DNA of 52,599 nt from Streptomyces coryli (GTDB lineage: Bacteria; Actinomycetota; Actinomycetes; Streptomycetales; Streptomycetaceae), in the NCBI RefSeq assembly GCF_011044975.1, contig NZ_JAAKZV010000026.1:1-52599 (forward strand), read 5' to 3'. The notes beneath the pieces are model-generated. The model was not told the DNA's origin, made no database searches, and worked only from the letters and a program-made list of their open reading frames with translations. The translations under genes and the position numbers were made by a program. This document shows, piece by piece, positions 12 to 46,754 of the stretch (position 1 is its first letter; each line of letters opens with the position of its first letter).

Positions 12-1166
12 TCAGCGCAGGCCCGTGGGGCGGCGCAGTGCCGCCTGGATCAGTTTGTCGACCAGTTCCGGGTACGAGACGCCGCTCGCCTCCCACATGC
101 GCGGGTACATCGAGATCGGCGTGAAGCCCGGCATCGTGTTGATCTCGTTGATCACGAACTCACCCTCGTCCGTGAGGAAGAAGTCCGCCCGCACCAAGCC
201 CTCACACGACGCCGCCTCGAAGGCCGCCACCGCCAGCTCCTGGACCTTCGCCGTCTCCTCGGCCGAGATCGGCGCCGGCACGACACCCGACGCCGAATCG
301 ATGTACTTGGCCTCGAAGTCGTAGAAGTCGTGCGACTGCACCGGCGGGATCCAGGCCGGAAGGCTGGCTCGCGGGCCGTCCTCGAACTCCAGCACCCCGC
401 ACTCGATCTCGCGGCCGGTGAGCAGTGACTCGACGATGATCTTCGGGTCGTGGCGGCGCGCCTCGGCGATCGCCTCGTCCAGGCCCGCCAGGTCATCGAC
501 CTTCGTAATGCCGAAGGACGACCCGGCCCGGGCCGGCTTCACGAAGACCGGCCAGCCGTGGTCACCGGCGAAGTCCACGATCTTCTTACGGGCCGCCGCC
601 TGGTCGTTGTCCCATTCGCGCGGGCGGACCACCACGTACGGCCCGACGGGCAGGCCGAACGAGATGAAGACCCGCTTCATGTACTCCTTGTCCATGCCGA
701 CCGACGAGGCCAGCACGCCGGAGCCGACATACGGCACCCCGGCGAGGTCGAGCATGCCCTGGAGGGTGCCGTCCTCGCCGTACGGGCCGTGCAGCATCGG
801 GAAGACGACGTCGACCTCGCCGAGCGCCTTCGGCACCTGGCCGGGCTCCGCATAGACGACGTCGCGGCTCTCGCCGCCGCCGACCGGCAGCACCACGGAG
901 CCGGTGTCGGACTCGACGAGCTGCTCCACCTGCGGCACCTGGCGGTCGGCGATCGCCATCCGCTCCGGGTCGTCGGCGGTCAGCGCCCAGCGGCCGTCGG
1001 CGGTGATGCCGATCGGCAGCACCTCGTACTTGCTGCGGTCGATGGCCCGCATCACGGCGCCGGCGGTGACCACCGAAATGCCGTGCTCGGAGCTGCGGCC
1101 GCCGAAAACGACGGCGACGCGGGGCTTGCGGCCGTGCTGGCCGGTGGTGGTGTTGTCGCTGCTCAT
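12..1166 (-). CDS. ddl: D-alanine--D-alanine ligase
   Basis: ATP-grasp ligase that joins two D-Ala for peptidoglycan pentapeptide in the cytoplasm. The 384-aa protein starts with the Ddl N-terminal motif VAVVFGGRSSEHGIS. It has the ATP-grasp segment VFVKPARAGSSFGITKV, the substrate-loop region FEAKYIDSASGVVPAPI, and the Mg-binding end FVINEINTMPGFT. The YxFEAKY..PAPI loop is the D-Ala-D-Ala type, not the VanA-type D-Ala-D-Lac version. It is the last gene of a leftward group with the plsC-like gene and gpsA, separated from gpsA by a 166-bp inverted-repeat element. The ATG at 1166 gives the usual family length. Confidence 0.96.
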   Translation of the reverse strand: MSSDNTTTGQHGRKPRVAVVFGGRSSEHGISVVTAGAVMRAIDRSKYEVLPIGITADGRWALTADDPERMAIADRQVPQVEQLVESDTGSVVLPVGGGESRDVVYAEPGQVPKALGEVDVVFPMLHGPYGEDGTLQGMLDLAGVPYVGSGVLASSVGMDKEYMKRVFISFGLPVGPYVVVRPREWDNDQAAARKKIVDFAGDHGWPVFVKPARAGSSFGITKVDDLAGLDEAIAEARRHDPKIIVESLLTGREIECGVLEFEDGPRASLPAWIPPVQSHDFYDFEAKYIDSASGVVPAPISAEETAKVQELAVAAFEAASCEGLVRADFFLTDEGEFVINEINTMPGFTPISMYPRMWEASGVSYPELVDKLIQAALRRPTGLR

Positions 1167-5456: not shown

Positions 5457-6050
5457 TCAGGCCTGCAATGTCCGCGGCTTGAAGGCCGGCCGGGAGGCCT
5501 CGTAAGCGGCGATGTCGGGCTCGTTCCTGAGCGTGATGGAGATGTCGTCCAGGCCGTTGAGAAGTCGCCAGCGGGCGTTCTCGTCCAAATCGAAGTCGGC
5601 CGTTACGCCTTCCGCGCGTACCTGGCGGTCCTCCAAGTCGACCGTAATCTCGGCGGTCGGGTCCGCCTCGGTCAGCTCCCAGAGGCGATCCACCACCGTC
5701 TGGTCGATGACGACCGTGAGCAGCCCGTTCTTCAGCGAGTTGCCGCGGAAGATGTCGGCGAAGCGGGAGGAGATGACCGTCTTGAAGCCGAAGTTCTGCA
5801 GCGCCCAGACGGCGTGCTCGCGGGAGGATCCGGTCCCGAAGTCGGGTCCGGCCACCAGGACCGAGGCTCCCTGCCGTTCGGGCTTGTTCAGCACGAACTC
5901 CGGGTCCTTGCGCCAGGCCTCGAAGAGGCCGTCCTCGAAGCCGTCCCTGGTGACCTTCTTCAGCCAGTGGGCGGGGATGATCTGGTCGGTGTCGACGTTG
6001 CTGCGCCGCAGCGGGACGGCCCGGCCGGTGTGCTTGGTGAATGCTTCCAT
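5457..6050 (-). CDS. leuD: 3-isopropylmalate dehydratase small subunit
   Basis: Swivel-domain subunit of isopropylmalate isomerase, leucine biosynthesis. The 197-aa protein starts [27 protein letters not shown]. It has the substrate-binding [17 protein letters not shown] motif (about residues 68-84) and [19 protein letters not shown]. The length is the family norm. ATG 6050 lies 5 bp after the leuC stop, so the two subunits are one translational unit that forms the LeuCD heterodimer. Confidence 0.97.
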
Positions 6051-38106: not shown

Positions 38107-38841
38107 TCAGCCCCGCTCGCGCAGATACGCCTCCAGCTCCGCCGCCCCCGCCAGCATCGCCCGCCCGCGCTCGGCCAGCCGGTCCCGCCAGTCGCTCATC
38201 GCCGCCTCCAGCGGCTGCAGCCCGCCGGCCGTCCGCACCTGCTCGAGCAGCGGGGCGATCTGCGCCAGCAGGTAACCACCGCGCCGGAGTTGGTGGGTCA
38301 TCCGGGCGTCGCGCACGGCACCCTCGTCGTACACGCGATATCCGGTGCGCGGGTCGCGCCGCGGACGCACCAGATCCGCGGCCTCCCATTTGCGCAGCGT
38401 CGCGGGGCGGATGCCGAGCTGATCTGCCAGCGGGCCAATGAACATGCCGCCGGACGGCGCCGGCTCCTCGGGACGCGCGCCGCCCTCCGCCGGGTCCAGA
38501 TCGCGCAGCGCCCGCTCCACGGCCTGCAGCGTCCGCCGGTCCTCGAGGAGTTGGGCGTGGCTGAGGTCGATGATGCGGAACGCGTCGTCGACCGCGCCCT
38601 CGTTCACCTCGCGCATGATCGACGTCGCGGTCGCGTGGCCGTGCCCGGGCACGAGGGCGAGGAACGCGCGCAGGGCCTGCGCGTGCAGCGGCGTATAGGT
38701 GCGGTAGCCGTGGGCGGTGCGACCGGCGGCCGGGAGGATGCCGGCCTCCTCGTAATTCCTGATCGCCTGCGTGGACAGACCGTGCTCACGCGCGAGATCT
38801 ACGGGACGGAGCCGCACCCTGGTTTGAAGGTTTCGTGCCAT
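38107..38841 (-). CDS. TioE-like MerR-family regulator with two HTH domains
   Basis: A 244-aa protein from ATG 38841. It has two MerR-type winged helices: residues 10-60 (RPVDLAREHGLSTQAIRNYEEAGILPAAGRTAHGYRTYTPLHAQALRAF) and 150-200 (FIGPLADQLGIRPATLRKWEAADLVRPRRDPRTGYRVYDEGAVRDARMTHQL), joined by a helical linker. This double arrangement is the TioE type, named from the thiocoraline cluster and often found beside resistance genes. It is divergent from an erythromycin-esterase-like gene across 58 bp. Confidence 0.9.
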   Translation of the reverse strand: MARNLQTRVRLRPVDLAREHGLSTQAIRNYEEAGILPAAGRTAHGYRTYTPLHAQALRAFLALVPGHGHATATSIMREVNEGAVDDAFRIIDLSHAQLLEDRRTLQAVERALRDLDPAEGGARPEEPAPSGGMFIGPLADQLGIRPATLRKWEAADLVRPRRDPRTGYRVYDEGAVRDARMTHQLRRGGYLLAQIAPLLEQVRTAGGLQPLEAAMSDWRDRLAERGRAMLAGAAELEAYLRERG

Positions 38842-38899
38842 GGCAGAGAGGATATCCGGGAAAAGTTTCAACCGAAGGTTCAACGATATCGTTTATGGC
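38842..38899. promoter_or_regulatory. TioE/esterase divergent promoter region
   Basis: In 58 bp it has GATATC twice (38851-38856, 38885-38890) flanking a direct repeat GTTTCAACC (38865) and GGTTCAAC (38877). This is the likely binding site of the double-HTH MerR protein. The -10/-35 boxes cannot be assigned with confidence. Confidence 0.45.
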
Positions 38900-39814
38900 A
38901 TGGATACGGACATCGGCCGGCCGCGGCTGCTTGCCCTGGGCGAGCCCGCGCACGGCGACGACACGCTGCTCAAGATGCGCAACGAACTCTTCCGGCGGCG
39001 CGTCGAGGAGGAGGACTACCGGACGATCGCGCTCGAGACCGACTGCCTGCGGGGCCTGATCGTCGACGACTACGTCGCCCTGGGCACGGGCACCCTCGAC
39101 GAGGCCATGGAGCACGGATTCAGCCACGGCTGGGGCGAGTTCGCGGGCAACCGCGAACTCGTGCGCTGGATGCGCGCCCACAACGACGCCCGCCCCGCGG
39201 CCGAGCGGCTCCGCTTCGCCGGCTTCGACGGCCCGCTGGAGATCACCCACGCCGCGAGCCCCCGCCACGCCATGACCGCGCTGCACGACTACCTGTCGGC
39301 CCGGGTGGACCCGGCCCTGCTCCCCTGCACCACGGAAACCCTCGACGCCCTGCTCGGCACCGACGACCGCTGGACCAACCCGGCAGCGATGCGGGCGCCG
39401 GATCAGTCCGTCGGCCGCTCGGCCGACGCCTCTCAACTACGCCTGATAGTCGAGGACTTGGTGGCCCTGCTGGACACGCACGCACCGCACCTGGCCCCCG
39501 CACGCGAATCCTGGCACCAGGCCCGCCTCTACGCCCGCACCGCCACCGGCCTGCTGAGCTACCACTACTGGATGGCGGACACCTCACCAGCCCGCATGAC
39601 ACGCCTGGTCGGCCAGCGCGACCGAATGATGGCCGCCAACCTCCTGGCCCTCGCCAACCGCACCCCGACCCTGGCCAACGCCCACAACGCCCACCTCCAG
39701 CACAACCGCAGCACCATGCACATGGACGGCACCCCGGTGCAGTGGTGGAGCGCCGGCGCCCTCGTCAGCACCCACCTGGGCCCCGATTACGCCTTCTTCT
39801 CCACGCAGGACTAG
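38900..39814 (+). CDS. Erythromycin-esterase-family protein
   Basis: A 304-aa protein from ATG 38900; an in-frame ATG at 38840 overlaps the divergent regulator start and is less likely. The N-terminus LLALGEPAHGDDTLLKMRNELFRRRVEEEDYRTIALETDC carries the Ere-family E15/H18 (GExxHG) and the later catalytic-region Glu (ALETDC). FAGFDGPLE and ANAHNAHLQ are further conserved blocks. It is shorter than macrolide esterases EreA/EreB (about 400 aa). Family members hydrolyse macrolide rings, but many have unknown substrates. Its stop overlaps the next, convergent gene by 4 bp (CTAG). Confidence 0.88.
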   Translation: MDTDIGRPRLLALGEPAHGDDTLLKMRNELFRRRVEEEDYRTIALETDCLRGLIVDDYVALGTGTLDEAMEHGFSHGWGEFAGNRELVRWMRAHNDARPAAERLRFAGFDGPLEITHAASPRHAMTALHDYLSARVDPALLPCTTETLDALLGTDDRWTNPAAMRAPDQSVGRSADASQLRLIVEDLVALLDTHAPHLAPARESWHQARLYARTATGLLSYHYWMADTSPARMTRLVGQRDRMMAANLLALANRTPTLANAHNAHLQHNRSTMHMDGTPVQWWSAGALVSTHLGPDYAFFSTQD

Positions 39815-41886: not shown

Positions 41887-42936
41887 TCACCAGCTGATTC
41901 CGGCGGCCACCGGCCGGTGGTCGCTGCCGGTGGCCGGCAGCACCCACGAGCTCTTCGGCTCCACACCCCTGACCAGGATCTGGTCGATCCGGGCCATCGG
42001 GGCCTTCGCCGGCCAGGTGAAGCCGAAGCCGTTCCCGGCCGCCTCCTGGGCGGAGTGCAGCTGCGCGGTGAGCCCGGCGAACGTGCGGTCGTCCAGGGTG
42101 CCATTCAGATCGCCGAGCAGCACCACCCGCTCGCTCTTGTCGGCGGCGATGGCCGCGCTGAGCGCCTGCACATTCCGGTCCCGGCCGCCCGTCGAAAAGC
42201 CGTCCCGGGGATTCACCCGCACCGACCCCAGGTGGGCCACGTACACCGTCAGCGACCCCTGATCGGTGGCCACGGTGGTGCGCAGCGCCCGCTGGCCGAC
42301 CATCCGCGCCGCCTCCGACTTGGTGTCGGCCAGCGGCCCCACGTCCTGCGCGATGTCGACCGCCTCGGTGCCCGACAGCGGCAGCTTGCTCCACACGCCG
42401 ACCGTGCCCAGCACGGCATGGTGCGGATAGGCCTTCGCCAGCGCCTTCTCGTACGTGCCCCGGGCCGCCTCGCTCACCTCCTGCAGCGCCAGCACCTGAG
42501 CGCCGGAGGCGGCCAGGTCGCGGGCGGTCCCTGCCGGGTCGGAGTTCTCGGCGGCGACGTTGTGGCTGACCACGGTGAGATCGGCACCCGACTGGGACTT
42601 GTCGCTGAGCAGCCCGCCGAAGAGGCCGGCCCACACGACGGCCGGCAGCAGCAGGGCCACCACGGCGGCAGCCGAGCGGCGCCAGATCCCGGCGGCCAGC
42701 AGCACCGGGATGCACAGCCCGAACCAGGGCAGGAAGGTCTCCACCAGGCTGCCGAGGTTCCCGATCCGGTTCGGGATCTTCGCGTGCAGCAGCAGGAAAA
42801 GGCCGAGCAGCACCGCCAGCCCCGCGAGCACGAGGCCGCGCTTCCAGGGCCCGGCCTCCGGGCGCCCGGCGGTGTCCTGACCGGCCGGAGCCGTATCCAC
42901 CCCCGCCATCGTTCGTTCCTGGGTACTACCGATCAT
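41887..42936 (-). CDS. vanJ: VanJ-like membrane phosphatase of the endonuclease/exonuclease/phosphatase superfamily
   Basis: A 349-aa protein. Three membrane helices (about 33-51, 64-84, 88-110) precede an EEP domain with Asn126 (VVSHNV), Glu153 (LALQEVSE), the LLGDLNGTLDD block and the S338-D339-H340 triplet (TGSDHRP). This is the build of VanJ of S. coelicolor and StaP, which give teicoplanin resistance and are thought to dephosphorylate undecaprenyl pyrophosphate outside the membrane. Its ATG overlaps the vanY stop (TAATG). The name rests on architecture plus the vanRS/vanY context. Confidence 0.82.
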   Translation of the reverse strand: MIGSTQERTMAGVDTAPAGQDTAGRPEAGPWKRGLVLAGLAVLLGLFLLLHAKIPNRIGNLGSLVETFLPWFGLCIPVLLAAGIWRRSAAAVVALLLPAVVWAGLFGGLLSDKSQSGADLTVVSHNVAAENSDPAGTARDLAASGAQVLALQEVSEAARGTYEKALAKAYPHHAVLGTVGVWSKLPLSGTEAVDIAQDVGPLADTKSEAARMVGQRALRTTVATDQGSLTVYVAHLGSVRVNPRDGFSTGGRDRNVQALSAAIAADKSERVVLLGDLNGTLDDRTFAGLTAQLHSAQEAAGNGFGFTWPAKAPMARIDQILVRGVEPKSSWVLPATGSDHRPVAAGISW

Positions 42937-43583
42937 TACTGCATCCTCGGGTCCTGGGTGGGGTCGGCATACATGCGCGGGCAGCCGTGGTCGACCGCCT
43001 CGGTGCGCAGCTCGTAATGCCAGGGTTCGTTCCGGTAGATCTGGCACAGCCCGTACGCCGTGCCGTGTTGCGACAGCCACGCGGTCGCGTTGGAGTCGCC
43101 GACGTCGATCGCGTCCCCGGATACGTGCGGCGAGGTGTCCGCCGTCGCGACCCAGCGGGCGGCTTCCGCCTCCGAGCCGTACTTCGAGACCGCGTCCCGC
43201 AGCAGCCGGTCCTGGTACTCAGGGGAGCGCCAGCCGCTGTTCACGTAGAACTTGACGCCGTCGTCGGCCGCAGCCCTGGCCGCCGTGCGCAGGGCCTGGA
43301 GCAGATCGGAGTCGATCTTGGCCACGCCGGGATACCCGTCATCGAACACGGTCACGCCGTCCGGGACGGCACCGTCGGGGTCGCCGACCGCCTCGGGGCG
43401 GTGCCGCGGATTCATGGGCGGCGGGGCGGCCGAGGAACGCGATGCGTCCGCCGAAGGCGACGAGGCCGTCGCGGACGGGGCCGACGGGACGTCCGACGCG
43501 TCCGGCGAGGACAAGGCCTCCGGCGCCTGGCAGCCCACGGCCGCGACGAGCACCGCTATGACGGCTATCGGGGTACGGATCAT
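42936..43583 (-). CDS. vanY: VanY-type D-Ala-D-Ala carboxypeptidase lipoprotein (M15B)
   Basis: A 215-aa predicted lipoprotein: the signal ends AAVGC with Cys18, then a Ser/Pro/Ala-rich linker to about residue 80. The M15B peptidase domain has YVNSGWRSPEYQ, zinc ligands His153 and Asp160 (SPHVSGDAIDVG) and His189 with catalytic Glu186 (NEPWHYE). It removes the terminal D-Ala from pentapeptide, which lowers glycopeptide targets. It is divergent from vanR and coupled to vanJ. No Shine-Dalgarno is visible before ATG 43583. Confidence 0.88.
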   Translation of the reverse strand: MIRTPIAVIAVLVAAVGCQAPEALSSPDASDVPSAPSATASSPSADASRSSAAPPPMNPRHRPEAVGDPDGAVPDGVTVFDDGYPGVAKIDSDLLQALRTAARAAADDGVKFYVNSGWRSPEYQDRLLRDAVSKYGSEAEAARWVATADTSPHVSGDAIDVGDSNATAWLSQHGTAYGLCQIYRNEPWHYELRTEAVDHGCPRMYADPTQDPRMQ

Positions 43584-43615
43584 GCCATCAGTCAAGGCAG
43601 CGTGGTGTTGCCGGA

Positions 43616-43670
43616 CCGTATGCGGTTTTCGATATGCCGACGATATGCGCCGACTCGTAGCATCTAGGAC
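43616..43670 (+). promoter_or_regulatory. vanR promoter region with VanR-box-like direct repeats
   Basis: CGATATGC occurs at 43630 and 43641, an 11-bp period typical of OmpR-family sites, with a related CCGTATGC at 43616. TAGCAT (43658-43663) is a good -10 placed so that transcription starts at or just before ATG 43671, with no -35 match, as expected for an activator-dependent and perhaps leaderless promoter. The 87-bp gap also serves divergent vanY. Confidence 0.55.
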
Positions 43671-44363
43671 ATGCGGGTCTTGATTGTCGAGGACGAACCC
43701 TTCCAGGCGGACGCCATCCGCGATGGCCTCCGCCTGGAGGCGATCGCCTCCGACATCGCGGGCGACGGCGACACCGCGCTGGAGCTGCTGAGCATCAACA
43801 CGTACGACATCGCCGTCCTGGACCGCGACATCCCCGGCCCGTCCGGCGACGAGATCGCCAAGCGCATCGTGGCTTCCGGCAGTGGCATGCCGATCCTCAT
43901 GCTCACGGCGGCGGACCGGCTCGACGACAAGGCCTCGGGCTTCGAGCTCGGCGCCGACGACTATCTGACCAAGCCGTTCGAGCTGCAGGAGCTGGTGCTC
44001 CGGCTCCGGGCGCTCAACCGCAGGCGCGCCCACAACAGGCCCCCGGTGTGGGAGATCGCGGGTCTGCGTCTTGACCCGTTCCGCAGGGAGGTCTACCGGG
44101 ACGGCCGCTACGTCGCGCTGACCAGGAAGCAGTTCGCGGTGCTCGAGGTGCTCGTCGCCGCCGAAGGGGGCGTCGTCAGCGCCGAGGAGCTGCTGGAGCG
44201 GGCGTGGGACGAGAACGCCGACCCGTTCACCAACGCCGTGCGCATCACGGTCTCGGCGCTGCGCAAGCGGCTCGGCGAACCCTGGGTCATCACCACCGTG
44301 GCGGGTGTCGGCTACCGCATCGAGGCACCGCGGACCGACGAAGGGGAAGAGGGCCATGCATAG
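43671..44363 (+). CDS. vanR: VanR-type response regulator
   Basis: A 230-aa OmpR-family regulator. The receiver domain has Glu7-Asp8 (VEDEP), phospho-Asp51 (IAVLDRDIPGPSGDEIA), MLTAADRLDDKASGFELGADDYLTKPFE. The winged helix is YVALTRKQFAVLEVLVAAEGGVVSAEELLERAWDENADPFTNAVRITVSALRKRLG. From memory it closely matches VanR of S. coelicolor along its length, including the LDRDIPGPSGDE segment. It overlaps vanS by 8 bp. Confidence 0.92.
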   Translation: MRVLIVEDEPFQADAIRDGLRLEAIASDIAGDGDTALELLSINTYDIAVLDRDIPGPSGDEIAKRIVASGSGMPILMLTAADRLDDKASGFELGADDYLTKPFELQELVLRLRALNRRRAHNRPPVWEIAGLRLDPFRREVYRDGRYVALTRKQFAVLEVLVAAEGGVVSAEELLERAWDENADPFTNAVRITVSALRKRLGEPWVITTVAGVGYRIEAPRTDEGEEGHA

Positions 44364-45432
44364 AGAGCACGGACTGAGCGTCCGCCTCAAGCTCACCCTG
44401 AGCTACGCCGGCTTCCTCATGGTCGCCGGTGCCTTGCTGCTCGCCGCCATCGGATTCTTCCTCGTGCAACAAGAGTGGCTGCGGACCAACGAATCGGGGA
44501 AATGGCAACAAGGCCCGGGGGTCGCCTTCGTGCGCGGTTTCGCCCCGCTGGCGGCCTGGGTCATGGTGTTCCTCCTGATCTTCGGCCTGCTGGGCGGATG
44601 GCTGCTCGCCGGCCGCATGCTCGCTCCGCTCGACCGCATCACCCACGCCACGCGCATGGCCGCGACCGGATCGCTCTCGCACCGCGTCCGGCTGCCGGGC
44701 CCGCAGGACGAATTCCGCGAACTCGCCGACGCCTTCGACATGATGCTCGCCCGGCTCGAAGCCCACGTCGCCGAACAGCGGAGATTCGCGGCCAACGCCT
44801 CCCACGAGCTGCGCACCCCGCTGTCGATCTCCAAGACCCTCCTCGACGTGGCCCGCACCGACCCGTACCACGACACCGGCGAGATCATCGACCGCCTCCA
44901 CACGGTCAACACCCGGGCGATCGACCTCACCGAGGCCCTCCTCCTGCTCAGCCGCGCCGAGCAGCGATCCTTCGCCCGGGAACCCGTGGACCTCTCCCTC
45001 CTGGCGGAGGAAGCCACCGAAACCCTCCTCCCCCTCGCGGAGAAGCACGACGTCGCCATCGAGACCTCCGGCGACATCACGCCCACGACCGGCTCGCCCG
45101 CGCTGCTGCTGCAGCTGACCACGAACCTCGTGCACAACGCGATCGTCCACAACCGGCCAGGCCAGGGCACGGTGTGGGTCCGTACGGGCAGCCGCCCCGG
45201 GACCGCGGTCCTCACCGTCGAGAACACCGGCGAGTACATCTCCCCCGAGCGGGCCTCGACCTTCACCGAACCGTTCCAGCGCGGCTCCGAGCGCATCCAC
45301 GCCGACCAGGCGGGCGTCGGCCTCGGCCTGGCCATCGTGAAGACCATCACCCACGCCCACGACGGCACCCTCACCCTCACCCCGCGCCCCGACGGCGGGC
45401 TCCGCGTCACGGTGGAGCTGCCGGCGGACTAG
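44356..45432 (+). CDS. vanS: VanS-type sensor histidine kinase
   Basis: A 358-aa kinase. TM1 is about residues 15-37, an extracytoplasmic loop of only about 26 residues spans 38-63, and TM2 is about 64-87. HAMP follows (RMLAPLDRITHATRMAATG), then phospho-His150 (FAANASHELRTPLSIS), the N-box NLVHNAIVHN and GVGLGLAIVK. The kinase core is VanS-like as I recall the S. coelicolor protein, and the short sensor loop is where ligand specificity differs between VanS proteins. ATG 44356 lies within the vanR end, after GAGG. It overlaps the convergent aldolase-family gene by 4 bp. Confidence 0.9.
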   Translation: MHREHGLSVRLKLTLSYAGFLMVAGALLLAAIGFFLVQQEWLRTNESGKWQQGPGVAFVRGFAPLAAWVMVFLLIFGLLGGWLLAGRMLAPLDRITHATRMAATGSLSHRVRLPGPQDEFRELADAFDMMLARLEAHVAEQRRFAANASHELRTPLSISKTLLDVARTDPYHDTGEIIDRLHTVNTRAIDLTEALLLLSRAEQRSFAREPVDLSLLAEEATETLLPLAEKHDVAIETSGDITPTTGSPALLLQLTTNLVHNAIVHNRPGQGTVWVRTGSRPGTAVLTVENTGEYISPERASTFTEPFQRGSERIHADQAGVGLGLAIVKTITHAHDGTLTLTPRPDGGLRVTVELPAD

Positions 45433-46432: not shown

Positions 46433-46448
46433 GACCTCACGTTTTCTG

Positions 46449-46521
46449 TACCCCCGACCGGATTCGAACCGGCGCTACCGCCTTGAGAGGGCGGCGTGCT
46501 AGGCCGCTACACAACGGGGGC
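46449..46521 (-). tRNA. tRNA-Glu (CUC), copy 2
   Basis: A 73-nt cloverleaf on the minus strand: acceptor GCCCCCG with CGGGGGU, anticodon loop CUCUCAA between CCGCC and GGCGG (anticodon CUC), T-loop GGTTCGAATCC. CCA is not encoded. Identical to the copy at 46588. Confidence 0.97.
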
Positions 46522-46587
46522 CTTGGTGATCCCTGACGTCGTCGCCTCCGGGCGCGACCCGGATGGAGACGGAAAGCAAAGGATCTG

Positions 46588-46660
46588 TACCCCCGACCGG
46601 ATTCGAACCGGCGCTACCGCCTTGAGAGGGCGGCGTGCTAGGCCGCTACACAACGGGGGC
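46588..46660 (-). tRNA. tRNA-Glu (CUC), copy 1
   Basis: 73 nt, identical in sequence to the tRNA at 46449-46521 (period 139 bp), anticodon CUC. Probably co-transcribed with tRNA-Gln and the second copy. Reads GAG, the main Glu codon in this GC-rich genome. Confidence 0.97.
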
Positions 46661-46682
46661 CTTGATCTCCAGAAGAGATCTG

Positions 46683-46754
46683 CTGGGCTACCAGGACTCG
46701 AACCTAGACTAAGTGAACCAGAATCACTCGTGCTGCCAATTACACCATAGCCCA
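46683..46754 (-). tRNA. tRNA-Gln (CUG)
   Basis: 72-nt cloverleaf: acceptor TGGGCTA with TAGCCCA, anticodon loop TTCTGGT between AGTGA and TCACT (anticodon CUG), T-arm GGTTCGAGTCC. First tRNA in the leftward operon. Confidence 0.96.

Follow-up and report, generated by a model that had tools for sequence, protein, structure and literature searches.

A Putative Two-Gene Glycopeptide-Response Module, vanY-vanJ, next to a VanRS-Type Switch in Streptomyces coryli

Gene Organization of the vanYJ Locus

A stretch of 52,599 nucleotides (52.6 kb) from Streptomyces coryli (assembly GCF_011044975.1, contig NZ_JAAKZV010000026.1, positions 1 to 52,599), referred to as the window, was analyzed with a focus on four van-type genes at positions 41887–45432. 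Two of them lie on the minus strand: vanY (42936–43583, 215 amino acids), encoding a VanY-type D,D-carboxypeptidase with an N-terminal signal or anchor, and vanJ (41887–42936, 349 amino acids), encoding a VanJ-like membrane protein with an EEP domain. The stop codon of vanY and the start codon of vanJ have one base in common (TAATG). The genes for a VanR-type response regulator (43671–44363, 230 amino acids) and a VanS-type sensor kinase (44356–45432, 358 amino acids) are located on the plus strand and overlap by 8 nt. A divergent promoter region of 87 bp (43584–43670) separates the two gene pairs. An initial annotation of this DNA had described the same arrangement, vanY and a VanJ-like EEP gene coupled by TAATG and divergent from vanR/vanS over one gap, and the coordinates of the open reading frames (ORFs) agree with it.

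All four proteins match their Pfam families above the cut-offs: VanY matches PF02557 (47.7 bits), VanJ PF03372 (81.8 bits), VanR the response regulator and Trans_reg_C domains, and VanS the HAMP, HisKA and HATPase domains. The best NCBIfam matches are the vanJ equivalog (513 bits), VanY-N (65.2 bits), vanR-O (449 bits) and VanS-O (441 bits), each below the strict cut-off of its model (700, 250, 505 and 720, respectively). The vanR-O and VanS-O models are exception models and, because both scores fall short of the cut-offs, the regulatory pair is named VanRS-type and not VanRS-O.

The zinc motifs of VanY (SPHVSGDAID and EPWH) are intact, and both motifs are present in 96 out of 99 aligned VanY sequences. 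Together, PF02557, SxHxxGxAxD and ExWH place the protein among the M15B carboxypeptidases, outside the VanYn group as delimited by the VanY-N cut-off. Three D-Ala-D-Ala carboxypeptidase sequences match the protein weakly (E 7e-5 to 2e-4). The protein had also been annotated as a lipoprotein, and an AVGC lipobox is indeed present in the window. A lipobox-like cysteine was found at the same place in just five relatives (L035, L038, L042, L056 and, by eye, L022; in one set of 18 relatives compared, three were too short to judge), and this feature is therefore not a conserved trait.

Distribution among Genomes

A scan of representative genomes yielded 236 confirmed relatives of the window VanY, and the analysis continued with the 80 best; all shares thus refer to close VanY relatives and not to all actinobacteria. 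Excluding the window, 44 of these 80 loci carry vanJ right behind vanY, 69 carry VanR, 65 carry VanS, and 37 contain the full vanRS/vanYJ set. The start of vanJ overlaps the stop of vanY by 4 nt in 43 out of 44 cases (the codon is present in L040, out of frame). The hosts include Streptomyces, Actinomadura, Microbispora, Nonomuraea, Herbidospora, Micromonospora, Arthrobacter and a metagenome-assembled genome (MAG) of Pseudonocardia. The gene order is therefore real and shared with many relatives, and a unique or chance arrangement was rejected on the 44 loci. Far from unusual, it represents a common module, and vanRS-vanY triads are already described (PMC8698665). Two vanRS-vanY loci (L044 and L054) were found in MAGs labelled Dehalococcoidia, reflecting either transfer or mis-binning.

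VanA-type ligases are rare in the genomes that carry vanYJ. A ligase with at least 73% identity is present in five of the 44 genomes (including the genome that supplied the query), and the other 39 contain only Ddl-like matches of at most 46%. Within the flanks of the 80 loci, a VanA-type ligase (at least 71%) was found ten times, once together with vanJ. Linked vanHAX genes were identified at 2 of the 44 loci with vanJ (including L034, with vanH at the edge) as compared with 9 of the 36 others (Fisher p = 0.01, a post hoc comparison of flanks of unequal length). In one vanYJ genome (G001, L084), a MurF-like ORF (named by eye) away from vanYJ is followed by a VanX-family gene, which has a second Ddl-like match (37%) beside it.

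A Conserved Putative VanR Operator

A sequence block with the core GTATNNNNTTTNCGATANGCNGNCGATANG is common to the regions upstream of vanR and aligns in all 98 vanY- or vanJ-linked regions (window included; 88 distinct). The 98 regions derive from 102 response-regulator matches, 99 of which had enough upstream sequence and one of which (L151) was dropped as not VanR; some represent two loci of one genome. In the window the block reads GTATGCGGTTTTCGATATGCCGACGATATG (43618–43647, plus strand), within the divergent promoter region, and is the putative operator to which VanR would bind. A pattern built on the block, with three mismatches allowed, recovers 97 out of 98 primary and all 33 secondary sites. 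It finds exactly one site in the window and none in 100 shuffles. Further copies are located before vanK and vanH in vanJKHAX loci; in L154, for example, sites lie at 5511 and 4220 and the vanK ORF starts at 5477 (the start of vanH is not fixed).

The pattern was also searched through the complete genomes of 15 of the 44 vanYJ carriers. A total of 17 sites were identified, with a single site, at the van locus, in 13 out of 15 genomes (0 out of 15 with a backward-pattern control). In these 13 genomes, the control exerted by VanR thus apparently extends to nothing beyond vanRS and vanYJ. In S. coelicolor, the divergent vanR-vanJ promoter is reported to be induced by vancomycin (PMC4790382, PMC6001138).

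VanJ and Its Core Paralogue

The hydropathy profile of VanJ displays four peaks, the last three of which overlap, and the protein probably consists of three N-terminal helices followed by the EEP domain. Residues N126, E153, H235, D276, N278, D339 and H340, which we take to be catalytic or metal-binding from what is known of the EEP superfamily, are invariant together with D318 in all 47 aligned sequences, 10 of which are core paralogues (see below). Positively charged residues precede helix 1 and also lie in the stretch that joins helix 2 to helix 3, a pattern that suggests an outward-facing EEP domain.

A phylogenetic analysis of the EEP proteins (84 sequences, from 95 before nine duplicate loci and then sequences below 250 amino acids were removed) separates 16 copies of a Streptomyces core paralogue from the van-linked copies as sister clades, each with a Shimodaira–Hasegawa-like approximate likelihood ratio (SH-aLRT) support of 99. 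The window VanJ falls into the van-linked clade, in agreement with its best NCBIfam match and with the initial annotation as a VanJ-like protein; it does not group with unrelated nucleases, an assignment that was rejected. For comparison, the NCBIfam vanJ model scores 718 with the vanJKHAX-linked protein of L154 (above the cut-off), 507 with L156 (vanYJ together with HAX) and 402 with the core copy L149. Within the van-linked clade, sequences from vanYJ, vanJ-alone and vanJKHAX loci are interleaved. The YJ label changes 15 times, and starred branches force at least four of these changes, which suggests repeated gain or loss of vanY and KHAX. The label +HAX was set by hand and unevenly (the vanA of L158 is unlinked, and L122 from genome G089 has an unlinked vanA yet is labelled YJ). 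Both this tree and the VanS tree described below are quick builds with SH-aLRT support only, and support is weak for the majority of inner branches (16 of 80 are starred for the EEP proteins and 11 of 69 for VanS).

A separate census of 121 evenly drawn Streptomyces genomes revealed a VanJ-like match in every genome. A van-class copy is present in 29 (E ≤ 2.3e-126; the next match is at 3.1e-115) and, judged by score, the other 92 contain core-class matches only. A second, core-class match was found in at least 28 of the 29 van-class genomes among the matches listed (G051 is the remaining genome). All 29 van-class copies adjoin VanR, VanS or VanY, which likewise speaks against an unrelated nuclease. 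VanR was found in 67 of the 121 genomes, VanY in 15 and VanA in 13, the latter in 6 of the 29 genomes with a van-class VanJ; a VanY sequence lies beside VanJ in 15 cases (three of them partial or divergent), 11 of which lack VanA. These proportions may be set beside published counts for the Streptomycetales, where VanR-like genes (414) outnumber vanY (126) and vanHAX (92–94) and vanZ occurs beside VanRS (PMC8698665).

The core paralogue shares the family and the catalytic residues of the window VanJ (56–64% identity among the matches listed) but forms the separate clade and has a different neighborhood. The core loci inspected (L139–L153, n = 15) mostly lie near a TetR-like regulator, MFS genes and a panB-like gene (names assigned by eye). 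The core protein is a candidate for the housekeeping ancestor of VanJ.

VanJ would act on a phosphorylated envelope lipid. The initial annotation had named undecaprenyl pyrophosphate, which VanJ would hydrolyze outside the membrane and thereby give back carrier lipid during the sequestration of lipid II. The predicted outward orientation of the C-terminal EEP domain and the invariant metal-binding and catalytic residues speak for this substrate, which is compatible with a glycopeptide-response role of the locus. Against it, EEP proteins act on many phosphoesters, and a sequence search found no solved relative of VanJ. Furthermore, the function or manner of action of VanJ is called unknown in two studies (PMC4790382, PMC6001138), and recycling of undecaprenyl pyrophosphate is best regarded as a tentative guess.

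The VanRS-Type Switch and the Absence of vanKHAX from the Window

The window VanR is mostly 84–94% identical to its relatives, and 89–90% identical to the VanR of two vanJKHAX loci (L154 and L155). In the VanS tree (73 sequences, from 86 before duplicates and sequences below 300 amino acids were removed) the window VanS belongs to a clade of nine (SH-aLRT 100) that includes vanJKHAX- and vanYJ-linked sequences. The kinship of both proteins to vanHAX-linked VanR and VanS identifies the two-component system as VanRS-type, in agreement with the initial annotation. The sensor loop of the window VanS, QQEWLRTNESGKWQQGPGVAFVRGF, shares 12 out of 25 residues with the vancomycin-binding peptide of S. 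coelicolor VanS, the sequence of which is given in PMC7109055. Scores against this peptide range from 62 to 111 in the nine sequences of the clade and do not exceed 31 in the other 64. The VanS loops of most other vanYJ loci are strongly unlike the window loop, and one and the same output thus apparently responds to different inputs.

Queries from the vanJKHAX locus L154 were used to search the window for the remaining van genes. VanK and VanX gave no match in the 52.6 kb, and VanH gave no gene but three short weak pieces (22, 97 and 51 residues; E 0.002 to 0.64), the first of which is operator DNA read in frame. VanA matched only a ligase at positions 12–1166 (minus strand, 38% identity), which lies outside the module and serves as context only. 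It scores 468.6 bits on the D-Ala-D-Ala ligase subfamily (cut-off 262) and 241 on the D-Ala-D-Lac ligase (cut-off 550), and was therefore rejected as a second VanA; it is a housekeeping Ddl of the D-Ala-D-Ala type, as the initial annotation had stated. The further statement that no D-Ala-D-Lac machinery is present holds within the window, which contains no vanHAX cluster.

One alternative is that the locus arose by reduction from a complete vanJKHAX or vanYJ-KHAX cluster, or that vanHAX survives elsewhere in the genome, with vanYJ as a mere accessory. Five of the eight other members of the VanS clade (L154–L158) come from genomes with vanA, VanJ proteins linked to vanJKHAX are interleaved with those of vanYJ loci, and vanA lies far from vanYJ in two genomes (G089 and G144). 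Against this history, the window contains no second operator in addition to lacking detectable vanK, vanH and vanX, three members of the same VanS clade (L007, L023 and L032) carry vanYJ while their VanA matches do not exceed 41%, and 39 of the 44 vanYJ genomes are without a VanA-type ligase. This alternative, in either form, is considered rather improbable.

The neighbors of the locus are a zinc alcohol dehydrogenase and a metallo-beta-lactamase-fold protein to the left and a DHDPS-family protein to the right, none of which is a van gene. Farther away, the window encodes an Erythromycin-esterase-family protein (38840–39811, plus strand; PF05139, 154 bits, far under the EreB cut-off) and a trio of tRNA genes (Glu, Glu, Gln; 46448–46754, minus strand) adjoining a gltX-like ORF (named by eye).

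Proposed Role of the vanYJ Module

With a probability of roughly two in three, the locus represents an inducible two-gene module for glycopeptide response (tolerance), a reading that is based on sequence comparison. VanS would sense a vancomycin-type glycopeptide, probably through its short outside loop, and phosphorylate VanR, which in turn would act at a single operator, shared by the divergent genes and lying between them, to switch on vanRS and vanY-vanJ. Outside the membrane, VanY is expected to remove the terminal D-Ala from pentapeptide precursors, and the D-Ala-D-Ala target would thus be lost without synthesis of D-Ala-D-Lac. VanJ, with its phosphatase-type domain predicted to face outward, would add protection, probably against teicoplanin-like lipoglycopeptides; in S. 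coelicolor, VanJ is reported to confer resistance to teicoplanin but not to vancomycin (PMC4790382, PMC6001138). The minimal glycopeptide response proposed in the initial annotation stands insofar as the switch is of the VanRS type and the locus itself is the sole detected output in 13 out of 15 vanYJ genomes, and insofar as genomes with vanYJ mostly show no VanA-type ligase.

Several observations weigh against this reading, beginning with the five vanA genomes in the VanS clade. A second operator-like site occurs in 2 of the 15 genomes searched. The one in G024 (L175, from 1500 onward) precedes a short fused vanR-vanS remnant, and near the one in G014 (L174:1501) no van gene was recognized by eye. 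PF01427 (the VanX family) exceeds the Pfam cut-off in all 26 vanYJ genomes searched; four have a strong match (E < 1e-40), which adjoins VanA in three cases, and the weaker matches are tentatively taken for other M15 peptidases. A VanY match is lacking at 14 of the 29 van-class VanJ loci of the Streptomyces census, and at three loci (L098, L099 and L101) the VanY beside vanJ is broken or divergent, indicating that some loci can do without vanY. In VanJ, K and R are found in the first loop as well, which makes the outward topology a modest prediction.

Finally, the operator is not confined to vanYJ. The census included 31 genomes with VanR but neither a van-class VanJ nor VanA, and 12 such loci were retrieved. 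In 10 of them (L180 and L182–L190) the operator-like site lies before a vanZ-like gene instead of vanR (two of the ten sites score below the weakest training site, and any site before vanR is weak at best); the genes are called vanZ-like because they match one of two copies that were compared with PF04892. The remaining two loci have a site right before vanR (L179) and a weak site only (L181). The vanZ-vanRS arrangement thus appears to be one more output of this switch. Together these loci suggest that one VanR operator serves several interchangeable outputs in actinobacteria (vanZ, vanJ, vanYJ and vanJKHAX), and that the presence of VanRS consequently does not imply D-Ala-D-Lac resistance.

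It is unlikely that the module mainly serves general wall remodeling, in development or against other lipid-II-targeting antibiotics, a role argued from the rarity of glycopeptide producers relative to the common van-like genes, which has cast doubt on resistance as the original function (PMC8698665), and in line with the diverse inputs suggested by the unlike VanS loops and with the genus-wide VanJ-like proteins, since the window loop is of the type that binds vancomycin in S. coelicolor and the window operator resembles those before vanH.

The glycopeptide-response reading can be extended. The locus might be a stand-alone, single-operator VanR regulon whose whole output is VanY and an outward-facing VanJ, a second full tolerance strategy that couples precursor trimming to lipid-carrier turnover, with VanJ recruited by duplication from a core envelope enzyme of Streptomyces and with sensor loops swapped between lineages while the output stays constant. 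This extended version is possible but doubtful. The question of how VanJ acts is now testable, with a natural partner in VanY and a genus-wide core paralogue for comparison.

Comparison with Known Systems

A conserved vanYJ operon without vanHAX was not found described in the open-licence full text searched, although the figures or supplements of one study (PMC8698665) may show one. Since vanRS-vanY triads and VanJ are already known, the operon is new at most as a variant.

The vanRS-vanJKHAX cluster of S. coelicolor resembles the window locus in its divergent vanR and vanJ (PMC6001138), in its type of VanS loop (PMC7109055) and in the clade of its VanJ. The comparison of operators refers to the vanJKHAX loci L154 and L155, which follow the plan of this cluster. 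Unlike in that cluster, vanY is placed between the promoter and vanJ in the window, where vanK, vanH, vanA and vanX were not found.

Nonomuraea VanYn (dbv7) has the same zinc motif (SxHxxGxAxD) and provides resistance that works without vanHAX, with tetrapeptide precursors and cross-links formed by an L,D-transpeptidase (PMC4790382). The window VanY differs from it in scoring 65 bits against the VanY-N cut-off of 250, and dbv6/dbv22 of Nonomuraea are described as not orthologous to VanRS (PMC7148328).

The vanRSY triads of actinobacteria (PMC8698665), such as VnlRS-VanY of Amycolatopsis (PMC7148328), likewise place VanY beside VanRS without vanHAX, and in A. balhimycina with vanHAX deleted VnlRS affects the expression of VanY (PMC7148328). 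The window locus differs from these triads in that vanJ, which is called rare in two orders (PMC8698665), overlaps vanY. In the pekiskomycin cluster, vanY and vanJ occur together alongside vanHAX and vanRS (PMC7325946).

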